DNA of 39,517 nucleotides from positions 1-39,517 of IMG/VR virus record IMGVR_UViG_3300042938_001824. One strand, written 5' to 3'. This DNA comes from a virus. Of the stretch, positions 9,335 to 38,037 are shown piece by piece. Both the position numbers and the translations under genes were made by a program. The notes beneath the pieces are model-generated. The model saw only the letters and a program-made list of their open reading frames with translations. It was not told where the DNA came from and searched no databases. Position 1 is the first letter of the stretch; each line of letters begins with the position of its first letter.

Positions 9335-9354
9335 GCCCTACCCACCGCGTCAAC
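9335..9354 (-). promoter_or_regulatory. pre-start motif of the tape-measure gene
   Basis: Read on the minus strand this is CGTTGACGCGGTGGGTAGGGC immediately before the ATG. TTGAC ends 14 nt from the start, and its TGA is also the stop codon of the upstream gene (…CGT TGA). Confidence 0.55.
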
Positions 9355-10030: not shown

Positions 10031-10050
10031 GCTGCTCCATCCCCGTCAAC
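10031..10050 (-). promoter_or_regulatory. pre-start motif of the chaperone-like gene
   Basis: Minus-strand reading is GTTGACGGGGATGGAGCAGC followed by ATG, again with 14 nt between TTGAC and the start. The tube terminator lies only about 18 nt upstream, leaving no room for a separate promoter between the two. Confidence 0.5.
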
Positions 10051-10067
10051 ACCCGCAACCACCTACC

Positions 10068-10105
10068 CAAAAAACAAAGAGGCCGGGGTAACCAACCCCG
10101 GCCTC
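10068..10105 (-). terminator. rho-independent terminator after the tail tube gene
   Basis: Perfect 10-bp inverted repeat GAGGCCGGGG / CCCCGGCCTC with a 7-nt loop. On the minus strand it is followed by TTTGTTTTTT. It sits 34 bp after the tube stop codon and probably limits read-through into the low-copy tail genes. Confidence 0.9.
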
Positions 10106-10139
10106 ATCGCCCTATCTTTTCAACCACCGTCCATGGCCG

Positions 10140-13373: not shown

Positions 13374-13640
13374 TCACTTCAAACCCAAAATCCGAGAACT
13401 CTTGTCGCCGTCACTCGCACTCAGTGCCACCCATCCAGCGACAAATTCAGCCTTCGCCAGCATCAGCATGTCAGGTGAAACCACCGCCACCGATCCATTA
13501 GCGATCCCATTGAGGTGATCCAGCACCACCAGGGTCGCGTGACCGATCAATACCGCTCCACCCAAACTCGTCTTCCAGTGCACCAGCGCCGAGTGCAAAT
13601 ACCGTGTCAGTAATTTCAAAAGGTAGTCCATCATCTTCAT
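13374..13640 (-). CDS. small membrane protein, possible holin
   Basis: 88 aa. A basic N-terminus (MKMMDYLLKLLTRYLHS) is followed by a hydrophobic segment at about residues 26-42 (LGGAVLIGHATLVVLDHL). A second mildly hydrophobic stretch leads into a charged tail (ASDGDKSSR). Two other membrane or lipoprotein genes lie immediately upstream, giving a lysis-cassette-like cluster. Holin is inferred from topology and context only; a virion membrane role is possible. Confidence 0.5.
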   Translation of the reverse strand: MKMMDYLLKLLTRYLHSALVHWKTSLGGAVLIGHATLVVLDHLNGIANGSVAVVSPDMLMLAKAEFVAGWVALSASDGDKSSRILGLK

Positions 13641-13662: not shown

Positions 13663-13884
13663 TTACTCCGTTGCCTCAGCCGTCTTCAGCAGTTCCCTAT
13701 TCCGCGCCTGCGCTTCCCGCACATGGCTGCCCGTCACATCACCGATCTTCACCAGATCCATGAAAGTTAGACCTGTTTTATTGATCAGCAGGATCTGCCC
13801 CTGCTCACTGAATCGTTGCACCGCTGCACAAGCATTCAGCATCAGACAAACAAATACCAGTAGGAGAATTGAGGGCCATTTCAT
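13663..13884 (-). CDS. small lipoprotein, possible outer-membrane spanin
   Basis: 73 aa with a clear lipoprotein signal peptide: K2, a hydrophobic core ILLLVFVCLML, then NAC with the candidate lipidated Cys at position 19. The mature part is about 54 residues, polar and helical. Short phage lipoproteins next to a membrane-anchored coiled-coil protein are typical of Rz1/Rz spanin pairs, which suits a Gram-negative host. The preceding gene (13919-14293) is the candidate partner. Confidence 0.6.
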   Translation of the reverse strand: MKWPSILLLVFVCLMLNACAAVQRFSEQGQILLINKTGLTFMDLVKIGDVTGSHVREAQARNRELLKTAEATE

Positions 13885-13918: not shown

Positions 13919-14293
13919 TCAGTGCTTCATTTTATCGTCCACCGCCGTCTTCACGAACGTGCGGAAATGATCCACCTGCTCCTGCGTCAGATCCACCAAC
14001 CGCTCCAGACAACTCGCTTGCCTATCCACCGACTCCCGCATGGAGTCTTCCCTCTGCCTCGATTCTAACTTGTGATTGTTTTGCATCACTTGCATCTCCT
14101 GCTTGTGGTCTTTCTGGGACTGCAAAAAAAGCCTCGAAATGTAGATTAGCGCCACCCCTAAAACCACCTTCAAAGTCATCTCATCCCAACCCTTCGTATC
14201 AGACATTAAATCTGCCAGGAAGGCACCGCCGCCGATCACCGTCGCGCCCAGTAGTTTTGTCTGAAAAATAAATGCGTCGATGTCTTCAAACAT
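13919..14293 (-). CDS. membrane protein with coiled coil, possible inner-membrane spanin or holin
   Basis: 124 aa. There are two hydrophobic segments, about 13-30 (KLLGATVIGGGAFLADLM) and 41-57 (LKVVLGVALIYISRLFL). A long charged coiled-coil-like tail follows, 58-115, rich in Gln, Glu and Arg. The ATG overlaps the end of the sigma-like gene by 8 nt and has a real Shine-Dalgarno sequence (AGAAGGAGG) inside that gene, one of the few on this strand. The topology fits an i-spanin partner for the next gene's lipoprotein or a class II holin. Confidence 0.55.
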   Translation of the reverse strand: MFEDIDAFIFQTKLLGATVIGGGAFLADLMSDTKGWDEMTLKVVLGVALIYISRLFLQSQKDHKQEMQVMQNNHKLESRQREDSMRESVDRQASCLERLVDLTQEQVDHFRTFVKTAVDDKMKH

Positions 14294-14768
14294 AAGTGCC
14301 TCCTTCTAGTTTTTCTCTGACCACCCACGCCACTTGCTTGCGAAAACGATACAGCCGCACCCTCTCCGCATTCGTCATTTGCGGGTTCCAGATCACACTC
14401 GCTTCCGTCACCCCACACTCCTCCAGCACGCGCGCTACATCCACCCGCTCCGCTGCTTGGTCGGGCGTTTCTCCAGAATGAGCCACCGCCGCCACCGCTT
14501 GCTCCAGCTCTAGGCACTCACCGCCCAGGATGCGCCGCCGCCGCTGCTCCCGCCGCCGTGCTTCCAAGATGAGCCAGTTCAACTTCTGCTGCAGCCACGG
14601 CCGCAGATTCCGGCTCATGTCCATGAGCTTCAATTCACCTCTTCGGAAAATTCCCAAAAACAACTCCTGCACATGATCCTGCGCACTCCCCAGATCGCAG
14701 CCCCAAGCCATCGCATGCGTCACCAACCCCGGCCGGTGCTCTGTGTAAATGTCAGATAATACACACAT
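14286..14768 (-). CDS. sigma-70 (ECF)-like RNA polymerase sigma factor, divergent
   Basis: 160 aa. Residues about 18-40 (AMAWGCDLGSAQDHVQELF) match the sigma region 2 core, in which an acidic 'A.D..QE.F' helix contacts polymerase. Residues 55-78 (LRPWLQQKLNWLILEARRR) match the following 'WL......N...D..RR..R' helix. The C-terminal part should carry region 4 but lacks a clear helix-turn-helix, so promoter recognition may be altered or lost. It sits between the fibre genes and the lysis-like genes. A phage-directed switch for late transcription is possible; a repurposed, non-sigma role is the alternative. Confidence 0.5.
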   Translation of the reverse strand: MCVLSDIYTEHRPGLVTHAMAWGCDLGSAQDHVQELFLGIFRRGELKLMDMSRNLRPWLQQKLNWLILEARRREQRRRRILGGECLELEQAVAAVAHSGETPDQAAERVDVARVLEECGVTEASVIWNPQMTNAERVRLYRFRKQVAWVVREKLEGGTYV

Positions 14769-14780
14769 GGTTATTCAGCA

Positions 14781-15914
14781 CTACGGCTCGTATCCACAAC
14801 TAACAGAGTTGGACTCCACAAGGCCATCGTAGGTTCCACCACTGCCATCAGCGTATGTGTAGAACATGTCATAACCAGAGCAGTAGCTACTTAGCACAGT
14901 GCCTGCTCCTGGTGGTGGCGGCGGTGGTGGTGTATAGCCGCAGTCAAGAGAGTTGGACTCCACAAAGACCGGAGCTGAGCCACCCGATCCATCCGCAACG
15001 GTGTTGTATTTGTCGGTGCCGTCGCAAGTGAACCCAAGGACGGTGCCTGCTCCTGGTGGTGGCGGCGGCGGTGTGTAGCCGCAGTCAAGAGAGTTGGACT
15101 CCACAAAGACCGGAGCTGAGCCACCCGATCCATCTGCAACGGTGTTGTATTTGTCGGTGCCGTCGCAAGTGAAACCAAGGACGGTGCCTGCTTCTGGTGG
15201 CGGCGGCGGCGGCGTGTAGCCGCAATCAAGAGAGTTAGACTCCACAAAGACCGGAGCTGAGCCACCCGAGCCATCCGCAACGGTGTTGTATTTGTCGGTG
15301 CCGTCGCAAGTGAAACCAAGGACGGTGCCTGCTTCTGGTGGCGGTATGTAGCCGCAGTCAAGAGAGTTGGACTCCACAAAAACCGGAGCTGAGCCACCCG
15401 ATCCATCCGCAACGGTGTTGTATTTATCGGTGCCGACGCAAGTGAAACCAAGGACGGTGCCTGCTTCTGGTGGCGGCGTGTAGCCGCAGTCAAGAGAGTT
15501 GGACTCCACAAAGACCGGAGCTGAGCCACCCGAGCCATCCGCAACGGTGTTGTATTTGTCGGTGCCGACGCAAGTGAAACCAAGGACGGTGCCTGCTGCT
15601 GGTGGCGGTATGTAGCCGCAGTCAAGAGAGTTGGACTCCACAAAAACCGGAGCTGAGCCACCCGATCCATCCGCAACGGTGTTGTATTTGTCCATGCCGA
15701 CGCAAGTGAACCCAAGGACGGTGCCTGCTTCTGGTGGCGGCGGTGGCGGTGTGTAGCCGCAATCAAGAGAGTTGGACTCCACAAAAACCGGAGCTGAGCC
15801 ACCCGATCCATCCGCCACGGTGTTGTATTTATCGGTGCCGTCGCAAGTATACCCAAGGACGGTGCCCAATGGTGGCGGCGCGGCAGCAAACCGATATGGA
15901 TTCAGGAGATTCAT
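14781..15914 (-). CDS. repeat protein with eight 40-47-residue units, fibre-like
   Basis: 377 aa beginning [15 protein letters not shown]. Eight tandem units follow, each of the form [17 protein letters not shown], then [14 protein letters not shown] and LDCGY, with two Cys per unit. Units are separated by proline runs of 3-7 residues. The first seven are nearly identical in both protein and DNA; the eighth is diverged ([19 protein letters not shown]) and probably reflects the ancestral unit. Similar 'DGSGG...NS..CGY' modules occur in phage tail and fibre proteins. The start overlaps the preceding collagen-like gene's stop (ATGA), so the two are probably made together. Confidence 0.7.
14900..15880 (-). 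repeat. in-frame tandem repeat array (8 units of about 125-145 bp)
   Basis: Units share long identical DNA runs (for example CAGTCAAGAGAGTTGGACTC on the plus strand). They differ mainly in the length of the GGTGGTGGCGG proline-coding spacers. The array lies entirely inside the repeat-protein gene. Confidence 0.9.
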
Positions 15915-17743
15915 GCGCGGGTGCCAATGAGTGTGACTTTGTAGCCTGCGCCCGCTTCGGTGCTGCCGATCTGGTCGATGATAAAAGTCAACACAGCATT
16001 GTCCTCCAGTGTATTATCTGAGAGCGTGCCAGGGACAGCCCCACCGACTGAGGTGGTCTCTGAGATGGCAATCTGCGGACTCACGCTGAAGATAGTCGTG
16101 CCTGCCTCCTGCACGTCGATGATCGCAACAGATCCCGTAGGCGCCGCGACACACTCAATGCGCACACTCGTCACCGTCATCGCATACGGCACACGCCAAG
16201 TGACTTTAGTGCCAGTCGTTGCCGCAGATGTTTCGTCACCTAGCGCAACGGAAAACTCAACGGGCATCCCGACAAATGAGCCGCCTGCGCGGTAGTAGCG
16301 CTCATCAACACGCAGATCCCAAACCGCAGCTTCTTCGGTCGCATCGCTGCACACCCATTCCCGGCCATCCTCATGCACCCATCGTGATCCGACGCGGAAT
16401 CGTAGCGAATCTTTGGCGTCATCGTAAATCGTTGGGGCACTAAAGTTCATCCGCACCTCGCGAACGCCGCCCGCACTTTGGTCGTAATACCACTGCCTCC
16501 CGCCTTCCCAGCGTTGCCGGTAATCAAGGGAACAGACCTGCTCGATGCCGCCTCCAGAGCCCATGCTGCCATAGCTCGGATCTCCAGCGGCGAGGAATGA
16601 GCCGTTGTCAAAGTCAATAGGGATACTGCCGCCGACTCCATCGTTACCTGCTGGGCCTTGCGGACCTTGCGCGCCATCGTTGCCTGCTGGGCCTTGCGCG
16701 CCATCGTTGCCTGCTGGGCCTTGCGGACCTCCATATTCACCCTGCGGGCCTTGCGGACCTTGATCGCCCTGTGGGCCTTGTGGGCCTTGCGGACCTTGCG
16801 CGCCATCGTTGCCTGCTGGGCCGCCGGGGCCTTGCGGACCTTGCGCGCCATCATTGCCAGATGGGCCGCCGGGGCCTTGTGGGCCTTGCGGGCCTTGCGG
16901 GCCTCCATATTCACCCTGCGGGCCTTGCGGGCCATCGTTTCCCTGTGCGCCTTGCGGACCTTGCGGGCCATCGTTGCCTGCTGGGCCGCCGGGACCTTGC
17001 GGACCTTGCGCGCCATCGTTGCCAACTGGGCCGCCGGGGCCTTGTGGGCCTTGTGGGCCTTGTGGGCCTCCATATTCACCCTGCGGCCCTTGCGGTCCTT
17101 GATCGCCCTTTGGGCCCTGCGAGCCATCGTTGCCTGCTGGGCCTTGTGGGCCTTGTGTGCCTCCACCTACGCCAGCACCATCAAGCCCAAGATTTTCCAC
17201 CGCCTGCTCTTGCTGCTCCGTGGTCAGTGTCTGTGGGCCGTCGTAGCGCACAAATCGTGCATCACACTCCGGCAGGCTGGTGGCGGGTTCGGCGTTCTCG
17301 GTCGGGTTACCTTCACTGTCTCCTGTGCTCACTTTTCGTAGCAACGTCAGTTGCAAGTCGTCACTCGCCTCCCAATCGGTCGCTCCAGGGATCTTCCACA
17401 AAATCTCTCCAAAGACCGCCAGACTCTGTTTGAGCGGGTGCTCGGCCAGTAGGTCCACCACGGCCACGGTGTTAAAACTCAGTCTGCCCGTGTAGAATCC
17501 TTGAGCCACACTTGCCGGCACACTCAACTCCGTCATCTCTGCTAGCAGCGTGCCACCCTTGGCATCACGCACCACCAGTTTAATCTCCGTGCCAGCGGGC
17601 ATCCCATACGCTTCCCCCACTTCAATCCAGCGAATCTCGACACGCTCTCCAGTCAGCGCTTTGACTTGCTGCTGGTAACCACCCGCCCTGGCTGGCAGCT
17701 CTGCACTCACTGTCCCATCCATTAAGTTAATAAAACAACGCAT
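15911..17743 (-). CDS. collagen-like tail fibre or appendage protein
   Basis: 610 aa. Residues 1-135 form an N-terminal beta domain ([36 protein letters not shown]) like the upper-baseplate/fibre-attachment domains of phage proteins. Residues 170-187 carry [15 protein letters not shown], a motif common in tail-fibre necks. Residues about 196-371 are collagen-like Gly-Pro-Gln / Gly-Asn-Asp triplets, expected to form a trimeric triple helix. The rest is a globular C-terminus ending in a beta domain with [10 protein letters not shown]. It probably binds the host or decorates the virion. The large GC-rich repeats create long meaningless plus-strand ORFs. Confidence 0.8.
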
Positions 17744-17764
17744 ACCTTAATCCTCTGCGTCAAC
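17744..17764 (-). promoter_or_regulatory. pre-start motif of the collagen-like gene
   Basis: Minus-strand reading is GTTGACGCAGAGGATTAAGGT then ATG, 15 nt from TTGAC to the start. It lies within a few nucleotides of the capsid terminator's T-run. A sigma-70 promoter using TTGAC as the -35 box would put the start site inside the gene, so an RNA-level role is more likely. Confidence 0.5.
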
Positions 17765-17768
17765 CCAC

Positions 17769-17799
17769 AAAAAAGCGCCGCCAGTTTCCCGGCGGCGCT
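17769..17799 (-). terminator. rho-independent terminator after the major capsid gene
   Basis: 9-bp perfect stem AGCGCCGCC / GGCGGCGCT with an 8-nt loop, followed on the minus strand by a run of T. It is 24 bp after the capsid stop codon. Confidence 0.9.
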
Positions 17800-17823
17800 G
17801 CTGAATAATCCTTCGCTTGGCGA

Positions 17824-22130: not shown

Positions 22131-22168
22131 GTCAGGAAGGATGAAGGATGAAGGATGAAGGATGAAGG
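22131..22168 (-). repeat. heptanucleotide repeat leader
   Basis: On the minus strand this is about four copies of CTTCATC ending 7 nt before the ATG at 22130, with no Shine-Dalgarno sequence. The same heptamer leads many plus-strand genes on the right, in the same orientation relative to the gene. Confidence 0.7.
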
Positions 22169-26969: not shown

Positions 26970-27215
26970 TTACTCGCTCGCAGACTCGATGTGGGTCAAC
27001 CAATCCTGGACGGTGAGGAGTTTTTCAGCTTCGTCGTCAGCGATGTCGATGCCGTATTCCAGTTCAACGGCCATGCAAAGTTCCACTACATCAAGGGAGT
27101 CCGCCCCTAGTGCTTCGAGTTTAGCATGAGGGGTGACGGCGGCTTCATCCACGCCGAGCTGCTCAACGATGAGATCAGTGAAGTAGATGCGGATTTGATC
27201 AGGGGTTTGTTTCAT
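26970..27215 (-). CDS. acpP-like: acyl carrier protein
   Basis: 81 aa with the full acyl carrier protein signature. Helix II begins [15 protein letters not shown], with the 4'-phosphopantetheine attachment Ser at position 40. It is preceded by the usual 'LG.....VT....L..LGADSLD' layout and followed by the acidic segment [17 protein letters not shown]. Length and charge are typical of bacterial AcpP. It needs a host phosphopantetheinyl transferase to be active. It sits inside the virion operon between the SSB-like gene and a small ORF. No ketosynthase or acyltransferase gene is in the window, so the acyl chain's use is unknown: lipid or LPS modification, acylation of a virion protein, or a decoy for host enzymes are options. 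Confidence 0.9.
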
Positions 27216-29884: not shown

Positions 29885-29904
29885 GCCACGCCCGCCGCGT
29901 CAAC
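29885..29904 (-). promoter_or_regulatory. pre-start motif of the gpW-like gene
   Basis: Minus-strand reading is GTTGACGCGGCGGGCGTGGC then ATG; the TGA doubles as the amidase stop codon (GAT CGT TGA). It differs from the portal-gene copy in one base of 20. Confidence 0.6.
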
Positions 29905-30496
29905 GATCAGAGGTTACTGAATCCGGCATCCCCTTGAACCCACAGGCTTCCCGCATCGCCTGCATCGGGAAGGCCGGACCCGGATCGTTCTTGCGTGCTG
30001 GTGCCACATCCTCATGGCCCATGGCATCATCGAGCTTGTAGCGTTTCACCAGAGCCTTCGACAATTCCTCACACGCCGCCAGTTGCAAAGGCGGATACGC
30101 CTCCCACTCCTGCACGGCTCCGCCGTTGCCATGCTTCGCCTTCACCAGAGGCAGCTTGGTCCAGCGTTTCGCCAGCGCCACATCATCCCCAGCGTTCGCC
30201 AGTTCAATGCCCAGACTGCATGAGTTCAGCCCATCAAAGCCCTGCCACTTCGAGCGCCCAGCATGGCCACAGGTCTTGTTGAATGGCCTGCACTGGTAGA
30301 TCGTGCCATTGCGGTCGATCACCACATGCGCACACGCTCCCTGCGCGTCCAGCGAGTTCCAATAATTGATGCTTGAAATCGCCGTGGCCCCGCTCGTGAA
30401 ATGCCAGACCAGGAAGCGACGCACCTTCATCTCCGCGCCGCCCAGCACCGGACGCCGCACCGCACCCACCAGCCAATGATCTTCTGAAATCGTCAT
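29900..30496 (-). CDS. N-acetylmuramoyl-L-alanine amidase (endolysin)
   Basis: 198 aa from ATG 30496, which is preceded by GGTGGCGGAGG; a GTG start at 30508 is less likely. It is an Amidase_2-type domain. The first zinc-ligand His is in VWHFTSGA, the substrate strand is AHVVIDRNGTIYQ, then SLGIELAN, and the second His and acidic ligand lie in GHEDVAPARKNDPGPAFP. It cleaves the lactyl-amide bond of peptidoglycan during lysis or entry. It has no signal peptide or wall-binding domain. The gene is far from the holin/spanin-like genes but is the first of the late operon. Confidence 0.9.
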   Translation of the reverse strand: MTISEDHWLVGAVRRPVLGGAEMKVRRFLVWHFTSGATAISSINYWNSLDAQGACAHVVIDRNGTIYQCRPFNKTCGHAGRSKWQGFDGLNSCSLGIELANAGDDVALAKRWTKLPLVKAKHGNGGAVQEWEAYPPLQLAACEELSKALVKRYKLDDAMGHEDVAPARKNDPGPAFPMQAMREACGFKGMPDSVTSDR

Positions 30497-30579
30497 GGCC
30501 TCCGCCACCTGTCACCCATTCCCTCTTGCATGTTCGCCGTTCCCCGTTCTCAGTTCCCCGTTCGTCATTCGTCATTCTC
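30497..30579. promoter_or_regulatory. divergent control region between amidase and HTH gene
   Basis: 83 bp separating the first late gene (leftward) from a small HTH-like regulator gene (rightward). It contains gttctcagttccccgttcgtcattcgtcattc heptamers written in short runs (GTTCTCA, GTTCCCC, CGTCATT). No clean -10/-35 pair could be assigned. Confidence 0.4.
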
Positions 30580-36948: not shown

Positions 36949-38037
36949 ATGACCACCACTCTCTACAACCGCCAAGCTGGCAGTGACAAGGTTTACCAAG
37001 TCACCATCCAGCCGATCAGCCTCGGCACGGCCATCGTCACCTTTGCCTATGGCCGCCGGGGCAGCACCCTGGCCACCGGCACCAAGACCCCGGAACCCGT
37101 GCGTGACGCCGTCGCCCTGGACATCGCCCAGAAACTCATCCGCTCCAAGCAGGCAGGCGGCTACGTCATCGCCACCGATGGCCAGACCGCCGCCGCCGTG
37201 GCCCCACCCGTCAGCAGCACCCCGGCACCCGAACCGACCCTGCCCATGCTGCTCAACAGCATCACCGATCTGGAGATGACCAAGCTCCTGCTCAATGACC
37301 TCTACTGCGCCCAGCAGAAATACGATGGCAAACGCATGACGCTCACCCTCAGCAGTGTCGGCGGCAAAGGTGTCGTCACCGCACTCAACAAACGCGGCCT
37401 GCCCTGTGGCTTTCCCGCCACCGTCCAACGCGCCATGCTTGGCCTCGACCACCAATGCGTGATCGACGGCGAAATGGTGGGCGATACCTTCCACGCCTTC
37501 GACCTGCTCAGCTTCGACAACGTGGACTACCGCCACCACTCCTACTCCGCACGGTTCAGCCTGCTCTACGAACTCCTGACCGACGATGGAGGCAACTGCC
37601 AAACCTACCTGAACTGCGTCGATTGCGAAGAGGACTACGAAGGCAAGCAAGCCCTGCTGGATCAACTCCGCGAAGACAACGCCGAAGGCATCGTCTTCAA
37701 AGACCTGCACGCCCGGTGGTCCAGCAGCCGTCCGAATACGGGCGGCCCGGCCCTCAAGTTCAAGTTCACCGAGACCGCCAGCTTCATCACGGGATCTCCC
37801 AACATCCTGCGCAGCGTGCCCCTCTTCCTCTACTCCGGCGGTCCCGTCCTGCGTCCTGTGGGCAACGTCACCATTCCGCCCAACCACACCGTCCCTGCCA
37901 ATGGCTCCATTGTCGAGGTCCGCTACCTCTACGCTTTCCCAGGCGGCAGCGTCTTCCAACCGGTCTATCTCGGCCAGCGCGACGACGTCACCCGCCGGGA
38001 ATGCCACGTCTCCCAACTCAAACTCAAAGCCGCTTAA
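36949..38037 (+). CDS. WGR domain fused to an ATP-dependent DNA ligase
   Basis: 362 aa. Residues 1-75 are a WGR-type domain (LYNRQAGSDKVYQVTI, IVTFAYGRRGSTLATG). Residues about 115-362 are a nucleotidyltransferase ligase. Motif I is QKYDGKR with the candidate lysyl-AMP Lys at 124. Motif III includes CVIDGEMVGDTFHAFDLL, motif IV is AEGIVFKDLH, and motif V is LKFKF near 270. A C-terminal OB-like part (GSIVEVRYLYAFPGGSVFQP) completes the ligase fold. It would seal DNA nicks using ATP. WGR domains bind DNA or proteins in eukaryotic PARPs and in bacterial fusions; here it may guide the ligase to its site. Confidence 0.85.
   Translation: MTTTLYNRQAGSDKVYQVTIQPISLGTAIVTFAYGRRGSTLATGTKTPEPVRDAVALDIAQKLIRSKQAGGYVIATDGQTAAAVAPPVSSTPAPEPTLPMLLNSITDLEMTKLLLNDLYCAQQKYDGKRMTLTLSSVGGKGVVTALNKRGLPCGFPATVQRAMLGLDHQCVIDGEMVGDTFHAFDLLSFDNVDYRHHSYSARFSLLYELLTDDGGNCQTYLNCVDCEEDYEGKQALLDQLREDNAEGIVFKDLHARWSSSRPNTGGPALKFKFTETASFITGSPNILRSVPLFLYSGGPVLRPVGNVTIPPNHTVPANGSIVEVRYLYAFPGGSVFQPVYLGQRDDVTRRECHVSQLKLKAA

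Follow-up and report, generated by a model that had tools for sequence, protein, structure and literature searches.

The gp55 protein of phage T4 has a C-terminus that binds the sliding clamp, and it reads a -10-like element in late promoters. In published accounts its likeness to sigma factors is limited to region 2, the part by which sigma factors bind the beta-prime clamp helices, and a layout with region 2 only can work (PMC2988020, PMC7892883). According to one of these accounts, every T4 relative whose sequence was then available has the gene (PMC2988020). Other phages are described as encoding sigma-70 family members of their own, among them those of phiEco32 / 7-11, of SPO1 and of the sporulation type (PMC4331800, PMC9429907), and phage-encoded sigma factors, including ECF-type ones, are already known. 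Sigma proteins without region 4 reveal how little redirects bacterial RNA polymerase, with T4 gp55 as the worked example, and another short example, this one of ECF origin, would make it possible to ask what region 2 achieves by itself. The locus described here encodes a candidate for such a protein.

The window, that is the whole stretch of DNA analysed, is the 39.5-kb virus record IMGVR_UViG_3300042938_001824 at its full 39,517 nt, and its genes are of the kinds expected in a tailed phage. The structural cassette is on the minus strand, in the order amidase, gpW-like, portal, capsid and tail genes; the portal gene was recognised by PHROG 21 (E 2.4e-46) and the capsid gene by PHROG 1005 (E 2.8e-30), the gpW-like gene was named by its place and the tail genes by gene order and length. 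The amidase (endolysin; 29900-30508, minus strand) is 15 kb from the gene for the sigma-like protein, P0001 (14286..14768, minus strand; 160 aa, ATG start), which sits between a repeat-protein gene and three small hydrophobic or lipoprotein-like genes. The next gene after it, which encodes P0002 (13919..14293, minus strand; 124 aa), overlaps it at its start by 8 nt and specifies one hydrophobic stretch followed by a charged, coiled-coil-like tail; it is referred to here as the TM gene. Beyond lie a 73-aa lipoprotein-like gene (13663..13884, minus strand), with a hydrophobic N-terminus and a lipobox, LNAC, recognised by eye, and an 88-aa small hydrophobic gene (13374..13640, minus strand), with a hydropathy maximum of 1.44, below the usual TM threshold. 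An earlier, sequence-only reading had placed the sigma-like gene upstream of lysis-like genes. The position stands, and the lysis identity is argued from the hydrophobic stretch and the lipobox, as judged by eye and by hydropathy; the family searches gave no informative match for these genes, the best (PHROG 17441, E 0.0025, for the TM gene) being to a family with no assigned function.

Several further features of the window were noted. On the minus strand, a 377-aa protein built of repeated units of ~45-50 residues (14781-15914) and a 610-aa collagen-repeat protein (15911-17743; Pfam Collagen E 7e-18) make up a fibre-like block that is the most variable part between relatives. Beside the portal gene lies an 81-aa ORF (26970-27215, minus strand) which by eye resembles acyl carrier protein, and which has a 31% match over 70 aa elsewhere in G297. 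A DNA ligase-like gene with a WGR domain is found on the plus strand (36949-38037; Pfam DNA_ligase_A_M E 8e-11, WGR E 5.7e-5). Low-complexity repeats of the CTTCATCC type stand just before start codons, at 22131-22168 on the minus strand and also ahead of the plus-strand starts at 1727, 34203, 35880, 36949 and 38128.

The ORF at 14286..14768 is a real gene, with a 46%-identical homologue (P0003, over 156 columns) in the same gene order in three related contigs. The capsid proteins of these contigs (L005, L006 and L007) are 90-91% identical to that of the window; as the homologue is identical in L005 and L007 and reads the same in L006, it counts as one independent sequence. A further contig, 3300046000_003551, has a copy with a protein identical to P0001. 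In the relatives the sigma-like gene is followed directly by the TM gene and the block that includes the small hydrophobic gene; in G296 the TM gene, which occupies the same position, is 44% identical and the small hydrophobic gene 42%. The overlap of the sigma-like gene with the next gene is kept as well, and the genes just upstream of it differ between relatives. For the lipoprotein-like gene no tblastn match was obtained in the relatives at E<=1e-3, and at its position L005-L007 have a gene of similar make-up. G301 and G305 are more remote members of the lineage, with 61% identity in the capsid protein, 53% in the portal protein and 41% and 38% in the tape measure protein. At tblastn E<=1e-3 neither of them has a counterpart of the sigma-like gene, the TM gene, the lipoprotein-like gene or the small hydrophobic gene; the corresponding position is taken by another TM gene, its tail charged, and by a gene that includes a lipobox-like stretch, both judged by eye. 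Since these two phages lack the sigma-like gene together with the lysis-like block, the P0001 gene is an accessory travelling with that block, and not a core late regulator of the lineage.

Wider searches did not extend this distribution. The phages collection held no homologue of P0001 (8 records, all partial and at E 7-8, and none at E<=1 in a second search), none was found in the genome contigs collection by pattern and tblastn, and in the viral contigs collection the matches were the window's own relatives only; a capsid-protein profile reaches the same five contigs as the single capsid sequence. General ECF factors match the two-row profile of P0001 and P0003 (E<=1e-3) in 34 of 288 Verrucomicrobiota genomes, and these matches, where the aligned range was given, extend no further than position 133 of the 169 in the profile.

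Sequence profiles and predicted structure assign residues 7-77 of P0001 (14538..14750, minus strand) to sigma-70 region 2 (2.1-2.4) of the ECF type. The resemblance to ECF factors had been proposed before, and it is borne out by Pfam, NCBIfam, a sequence search of the PDB, AlphaFold and a fold search. Pfam Sigma70_r2 (PF04542) matches residues 7-77 with E 1.1e-4 and 22.4 bits, just missing the gathering score of 24, and the identical copy in G294, taken with its in-frame neighbours included, scores 24.1 bits. Among the NCBIfam models, PRK09645 matches residues 4-117 (E 3.3e-8) and TIGR02989, the "Rhodopirellula/Verrucomicrobium family", residues 7-118 (E 4.5e-7); under the curated cut-offs of these ECF families P0001 does not qualify, its best scores being 33.6 vs 202 and 29.9 vs 124.55. 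A phmmer search of the PDB found SigL of M. tuberculosis (E 0.0023). The structure prediction that had been proposed for region 2 agreed: in an AlphaFold model from the two-sequence alignment, residues 1-80 form a block with pLDDT 74-95, the remainder being poorly defined, and this block matches ECF sigma entries. Such entries lead a second-look fold list (top row Z 10.6, rmsd 2.6 A, 78 residues), in which nothing clearly unrelated appears before row 39 (SRP54, Z 6.8). Foldseek gave nothing below E 0.001 for the model, its best rows being sigma-factor entries with SigL on top at 0.024. As a Z under about 13 can arise by chance for helical bundles, the region-2 claim is founded on sequence first.

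The same fold list contains the sigma-like domains of PhyR, the anti-anti-sigma factor (3t0y, Z 7.1; 4qic, Z 6.2), which have the region-2 fold in common with P0001. It could therefore be asked whether P0001 is a PhyR-like decoy, a mimic of region 2 that sequesters an anti-sigma factor of the host and thereby releases one of the host's ECF sigma factors. However, PhyR ranks below the ECF factors in that list (Z 7.1 vs 10.6); PhyR_sigma2 is listed neither for P0001 (limit E 10) nor for P0003 (limit E 1), whereas the sigma factor of another phage, included in the scan of P0003, does match it (0.002); and the 160 residues of P0001 hold no receiver domain. Nothing found favours the decoy, and we regard it as most improbable.

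Conservation within region 2 bears on what the domain may do. The region 2.2 residues D31, Q34 and F37 are kept in both P0001 and P0003. Within residues 1-81, ten positions reach at least 70% conservation among 14 host ECF factors; nine of these are retained in P0001 and seven in P0003, a count that is partly circular as the host factors were picked by their matches to the P0001 profile (one host sequence, L190, was omitted before the alignment). Between the two phage proteins, 17 of 41 positions are identical in region 2.1-2.2 (41.5%) and 12 of 38 in region 2.3-2.4 (31.6%). The better conservation of the core-binding part over the DNA-reading part is what would be expected if P0001 were purely a mimic of sigma, filling the sigma2 docking site and shutting off host or early transcription with no reading of promoters; the lack of a detectable canonical region 4 and of any motif accompanying the gene would suit such a mimic too. 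However, the gap of 42 to 32% is small at these counts, region 2 of P0001 ends in a strongly basic stretch (RRREQRRRR) like that of DNA-reading sigma factors, and a place in the late cassette would be late for host shut-off. We consider a pure mimic unlikely.

The sequence-only reading had also stated that the expected promoter-recognition domain was not visible, and this was confirmed. Neither P0001 (Pfam scan, limit E 10) nor P0003 (limit E 1) has a region-4 family listed, while positive controls in the scan of P0003 were found: an ECF factor of C. flavus (Chthoniobacter) at 4e-11 and, both below the curated cut-off, the sigma factor of another phage at 5e-4 and a long-family host factor at 0.013. 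In place of canonical region 4 there is a conserved C-terminal element, DVARVLEECGVTEASVIWNPQMTNAERVRLYRFRKQV (residues 110-146; 14331..14441, minus strand), which is identical at 28 of 37 positions in P0003. It forms the core of the best conserved part of the two proteins (residues 102-155, 35 of 54 identical, 65%). AlphaFold models, both of the full-length protein and of the C-terminal part folded alone (low confidence, pLDDT 65), show two long helices and no canonical region 4, the full-length model having one 4-residue helix between them. Foldseek with the C-terminal part alone gave three matches at E 5-7, with no sigma factor among the matches listed.

The element can nonetheless be aligned to the region-4.2 helix-turn-helix of long verrucomicrobial ECF factors, with DVARVLEECGVTEASV and RVRLYRFRKQVAWVVREKL opposite TDYAALAAECGSTEGAL and RVAAHRLRKRFRALVREEV, provided that region 4 is taken to have lost its first helices and to have gained an insertion of about ten residues (IWNPQMTNAE / IWKPGMEDAK). 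On this basis P0001 could be a rebuilt but complete ECF sigma factor, with an altered region 4.2 that still reads a -35-like element. With a profile of the long family, 70 and 24 of 5000 shuffles reached the score of the element; with the profile of all 14 host factors, however, 504 and 727 of 5000 did so. The long-family score itself is 4-5 bits, below the 25 best unrelated ORFs listed, and in hhalign the isolated C-terminal part reached 26-30% against two of the host sets but 2.5% against the third, its templates having been chosen by region-2 matches to the query, which makes its region-2 probabilities partly circular. As neither AlphaFold model has a canonical region 4 and the part alone finds no sigma factor with Foldseek, we think a rebuilt sigma factor improbable. 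The C-terminal element is constrained yet unclassified.

This constraint also bears on whether the gene is a relic, captured from a host and in the course of losing its function. Two sister phages are without it, region 4 is undetectable, and the sigma-like protein has diverged faster than the capsid protein (46% vs 91% identity), all of which a relic would explain. Its divergence, however, equals that of its neighbours (44% for the TM gene and 42% for the small hydrophobic gene), and open frame, start, overlap and place are maintained in both lineages. The C-terminal half, where decay would be expected, is the best conserved and does not look like decay; a relic is thus very improbable.

The sequence-only reading had further suggested that the protein might relate to an odd TTGAC motif ahead of start codons. 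The window has 15 copies of GTTGAC on the strand that encodes the structural genes and four on the opposite strand. Ten of the 15 coding-strand copies have an ATG 20-21 nt after the G, one of them internal and nine at gene starts (29884, 29384, 26619, 17743, 13884, 11024, 10532, 10030 and 9334, minus strand), and GTTGACG is present in 6 of the 18 intergenic stretches of the structural cassette, where 0.28 would be expected. The copy nearest downstream of the P0001 gene (13882..13904, minus strand) stands ahead of the lipoprotein-like gene. Over 55 viral sites, with redundancy removed solely on the first 12 residues encoded, the shared pattern consists of GTTGACGCGG from -20 to -11 followed by GGC from -3 to -1 (GTTGACGCGG-N7-GGC-ATG), with no conservation upstream of -20; because many loci were collected with a strict pattern, part of it is selection, from which the window and the relatives found by protein are exempt. 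The motif is also found in G301, G305, G007 and other viral loci, and in none of 40 virus records does it occur with the ATG two bases further off, which served as a spacing control.

Some details of the motif sites were also noted. At the sites before 29884, 29384 and 9334 the TGA within GTTGAC is the stop codon of the upstream ORF, leaving an intergenic gap of 15 nt in all at 29885-29899 and at 9335-9349. GC-rich, terminator-like hairpins with T runs, recognised by eye, lie directly upstream of GTTGAC at 17744-17823 and 10031-10139, where they follow the capsid gene and a tail-tube-like gene; they would fit transcription restarting at the motif. Ahead of some copies stands a second one in inverted orientation (GCGTCAACTGTTGACGC; GTCAACGGCTCGTTGAC), near the motif at 1947 in L016 and near 9354 in the window, as would be expected of a site bound by a dimer.

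P0001 was considered as the reader of GTTGAC and was rejected, as the motif is not tied to the presence of a sigma gene. The pattern GTTGACR-N10-GSMATG matches seven times in G301, seven times in G305 and four times in the window, and neither G301 nor G305 has a sigma region 2 (PF04542, E<=0.01). At the same threshold 40 virus records were searched, comprising five relatives of the window and 35 other contigs from the motif scan; region 2 was present in four of the five relatives (G295 being without it) and in one of the 35 motif-found records, as part of a 239-aa protein. Restricting the latter to records of at least 25 kb gave 1 of 14, and G007 (79.0 kb), with two motif matches, has no region 2 either. 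As the records are fragments, absence in any one of them counts for little, and a record with one match only may owe it to chance; the comparison therefore leans on G301 (63.6 kb) and G305 (36.3 kb), phages that have capsid, portal and tail genes in common with the window. P0001 does not seem to read the pre-start motif, and an intergenic search revealed no promoter-like sequence that goes with its gene, the sole strong motif being shared with phages which lack it. As another candidate reader of the motif, the single-subunit phage RNA polymerase family (PF00940) was matched in 0 of 16 records, a result that carries no weight as it had no match in any control genome either, and the region-4 family PF08281 was matched in 6 of 16 records at E<=0.1, none above the cut-off.

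GTTGAC was likewise rejected as a signal of the host, the strict motif being present in 2 of 288 Verrucomicrobiota genomes, both of C. flavus (G001 and G005) and both brought into the set through the motif scan. Their two copies agree with those of virus record G007 in both sequence and spacing. Over 400 kb of C. flavus, one TTGAC has an ATG 19 nt after it, the phage distance, where other distances average 4.65 such pairs; at 18 nt there are 12, slightly more than the maximum of 11 elsewhere. The motif scan of genome contigs gave 112 stretches, and as those come from many phyla among the 80 listed, most are chance. The motif looks like a phage-specific, start-associated sequence which merits separate study, and its uncoupling from P0001 frees it to be studied as a phage-specific signal. 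The Start-Associated Sequences described for cluster K mycobacteriophages are likewise asymmetric, repeated, placed right before many starts and nearly all in one orientation (PMC3203893). The sequence given there is GGGATAGGAGCCC (PMC3203893); the GTTGAC motif is a different sequence and has two parts, GTTGACGCGG and GGC. The host of the phage is likely a member of the Verrucomicrobiota, as hinted by TIGR02989 being the second-best NCBIfam match of P0001, and by G007, which carries the motif too, both copies recurring at the same spacing in C. flavus, and in which a distant match to the portal was obtained (23% over 460 aa, E 7.5e-17).

With the alternatives weighed in this way, the reading we prefer is that P0001 steers the host polymerase through region 2, displacing the host sigma factor, a proposal for and against which we see the balance as about even. 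The protein would have derived from an ECF sigma factor, retaining region 2 with its core-binding residues in region 2.2, and its private, conserved C-terminal element would stand in for canonical region 4. From the position of the gene inside the structural cassette and its overlap with the next gene, we infer that P0001 would be made together with the late genes; its region 2 may then dock on the beta-prime clamp helices of the host RNA polymerase and steer the enzyme by region 2 alone, in the manner of T4 gp55, host sigma being displaced on binding. The host-conserved positions kept by P0001 (9 of 10) and P0003 (7 of 10) argue for this mechanism, as do the conserved place and overlap of the gene. 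The lower conservation of the DNA-reading region 2.3-2.4 (12/38) argues against it, so that displacement of sigma with no reading of promoters fits equally well. A broader proposal, that P0001 founds a small class of phage regulators consisting of an ECF sigma factor minus canonical region 4 plus a private C-terminal element, is tentative and to our minds doubtful. If true, it would describe a one-domain switch for late or lysis genes in Verrucomicrobiota phages, with an ECF factor as the independent starting point of a solution like that of gp55. P0001 would also give a handle on transcription in Verrucomicrobiota phages, on which a few word combinations put to the open-licence literature found no dedicated study; the same kind of search found no account of the P0001 protein or of the GTTGAC motif.

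Compared with the systems described so far, P0001 is closest in layout to T4 gp55, both being phage-encoded and having region 2 without region 4; the likeness is one of layout only. The -10-like element read by gp55 contrasts with the situation here, where the strong motif, GTTGAC, does not go with the gene. As for sequence kinship with the gp55 family, no PHROG family matched P0001 at a limit of E 10, a search in which the HMMER filters drop most weak matches. Where gp55 was present in all T4 relatives then sequenced (PMC2988020), P0001 is missing from two sister phages. With the ECF (group 4) sigma-70 factors P0001 shares the fold of region 2 and the region 2.2 residues, and the match to PRK09645 and TIGR02989 reaches the start of the linker or region 4 (residues 4-118); it differs from them in falling far under the family cut-offs and in having no detectable canonical region 4. 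Phage ECF-type factors were listed in a BFVD fold search with P0001 at E 0.05 or worse only. The sigma factors of phiEco32 / 7-11 are described as reading phage promoters and those of the sporulation type as affecting sporulation (PMC4331800, PMC9429907), whereas no promoter-like sequence was found to go with the gene of P0001. Lacking canonical region 4 and carrying a private, conserved C-terminal element in its stead, P0001 is thus a variant of the phage sigma factor.
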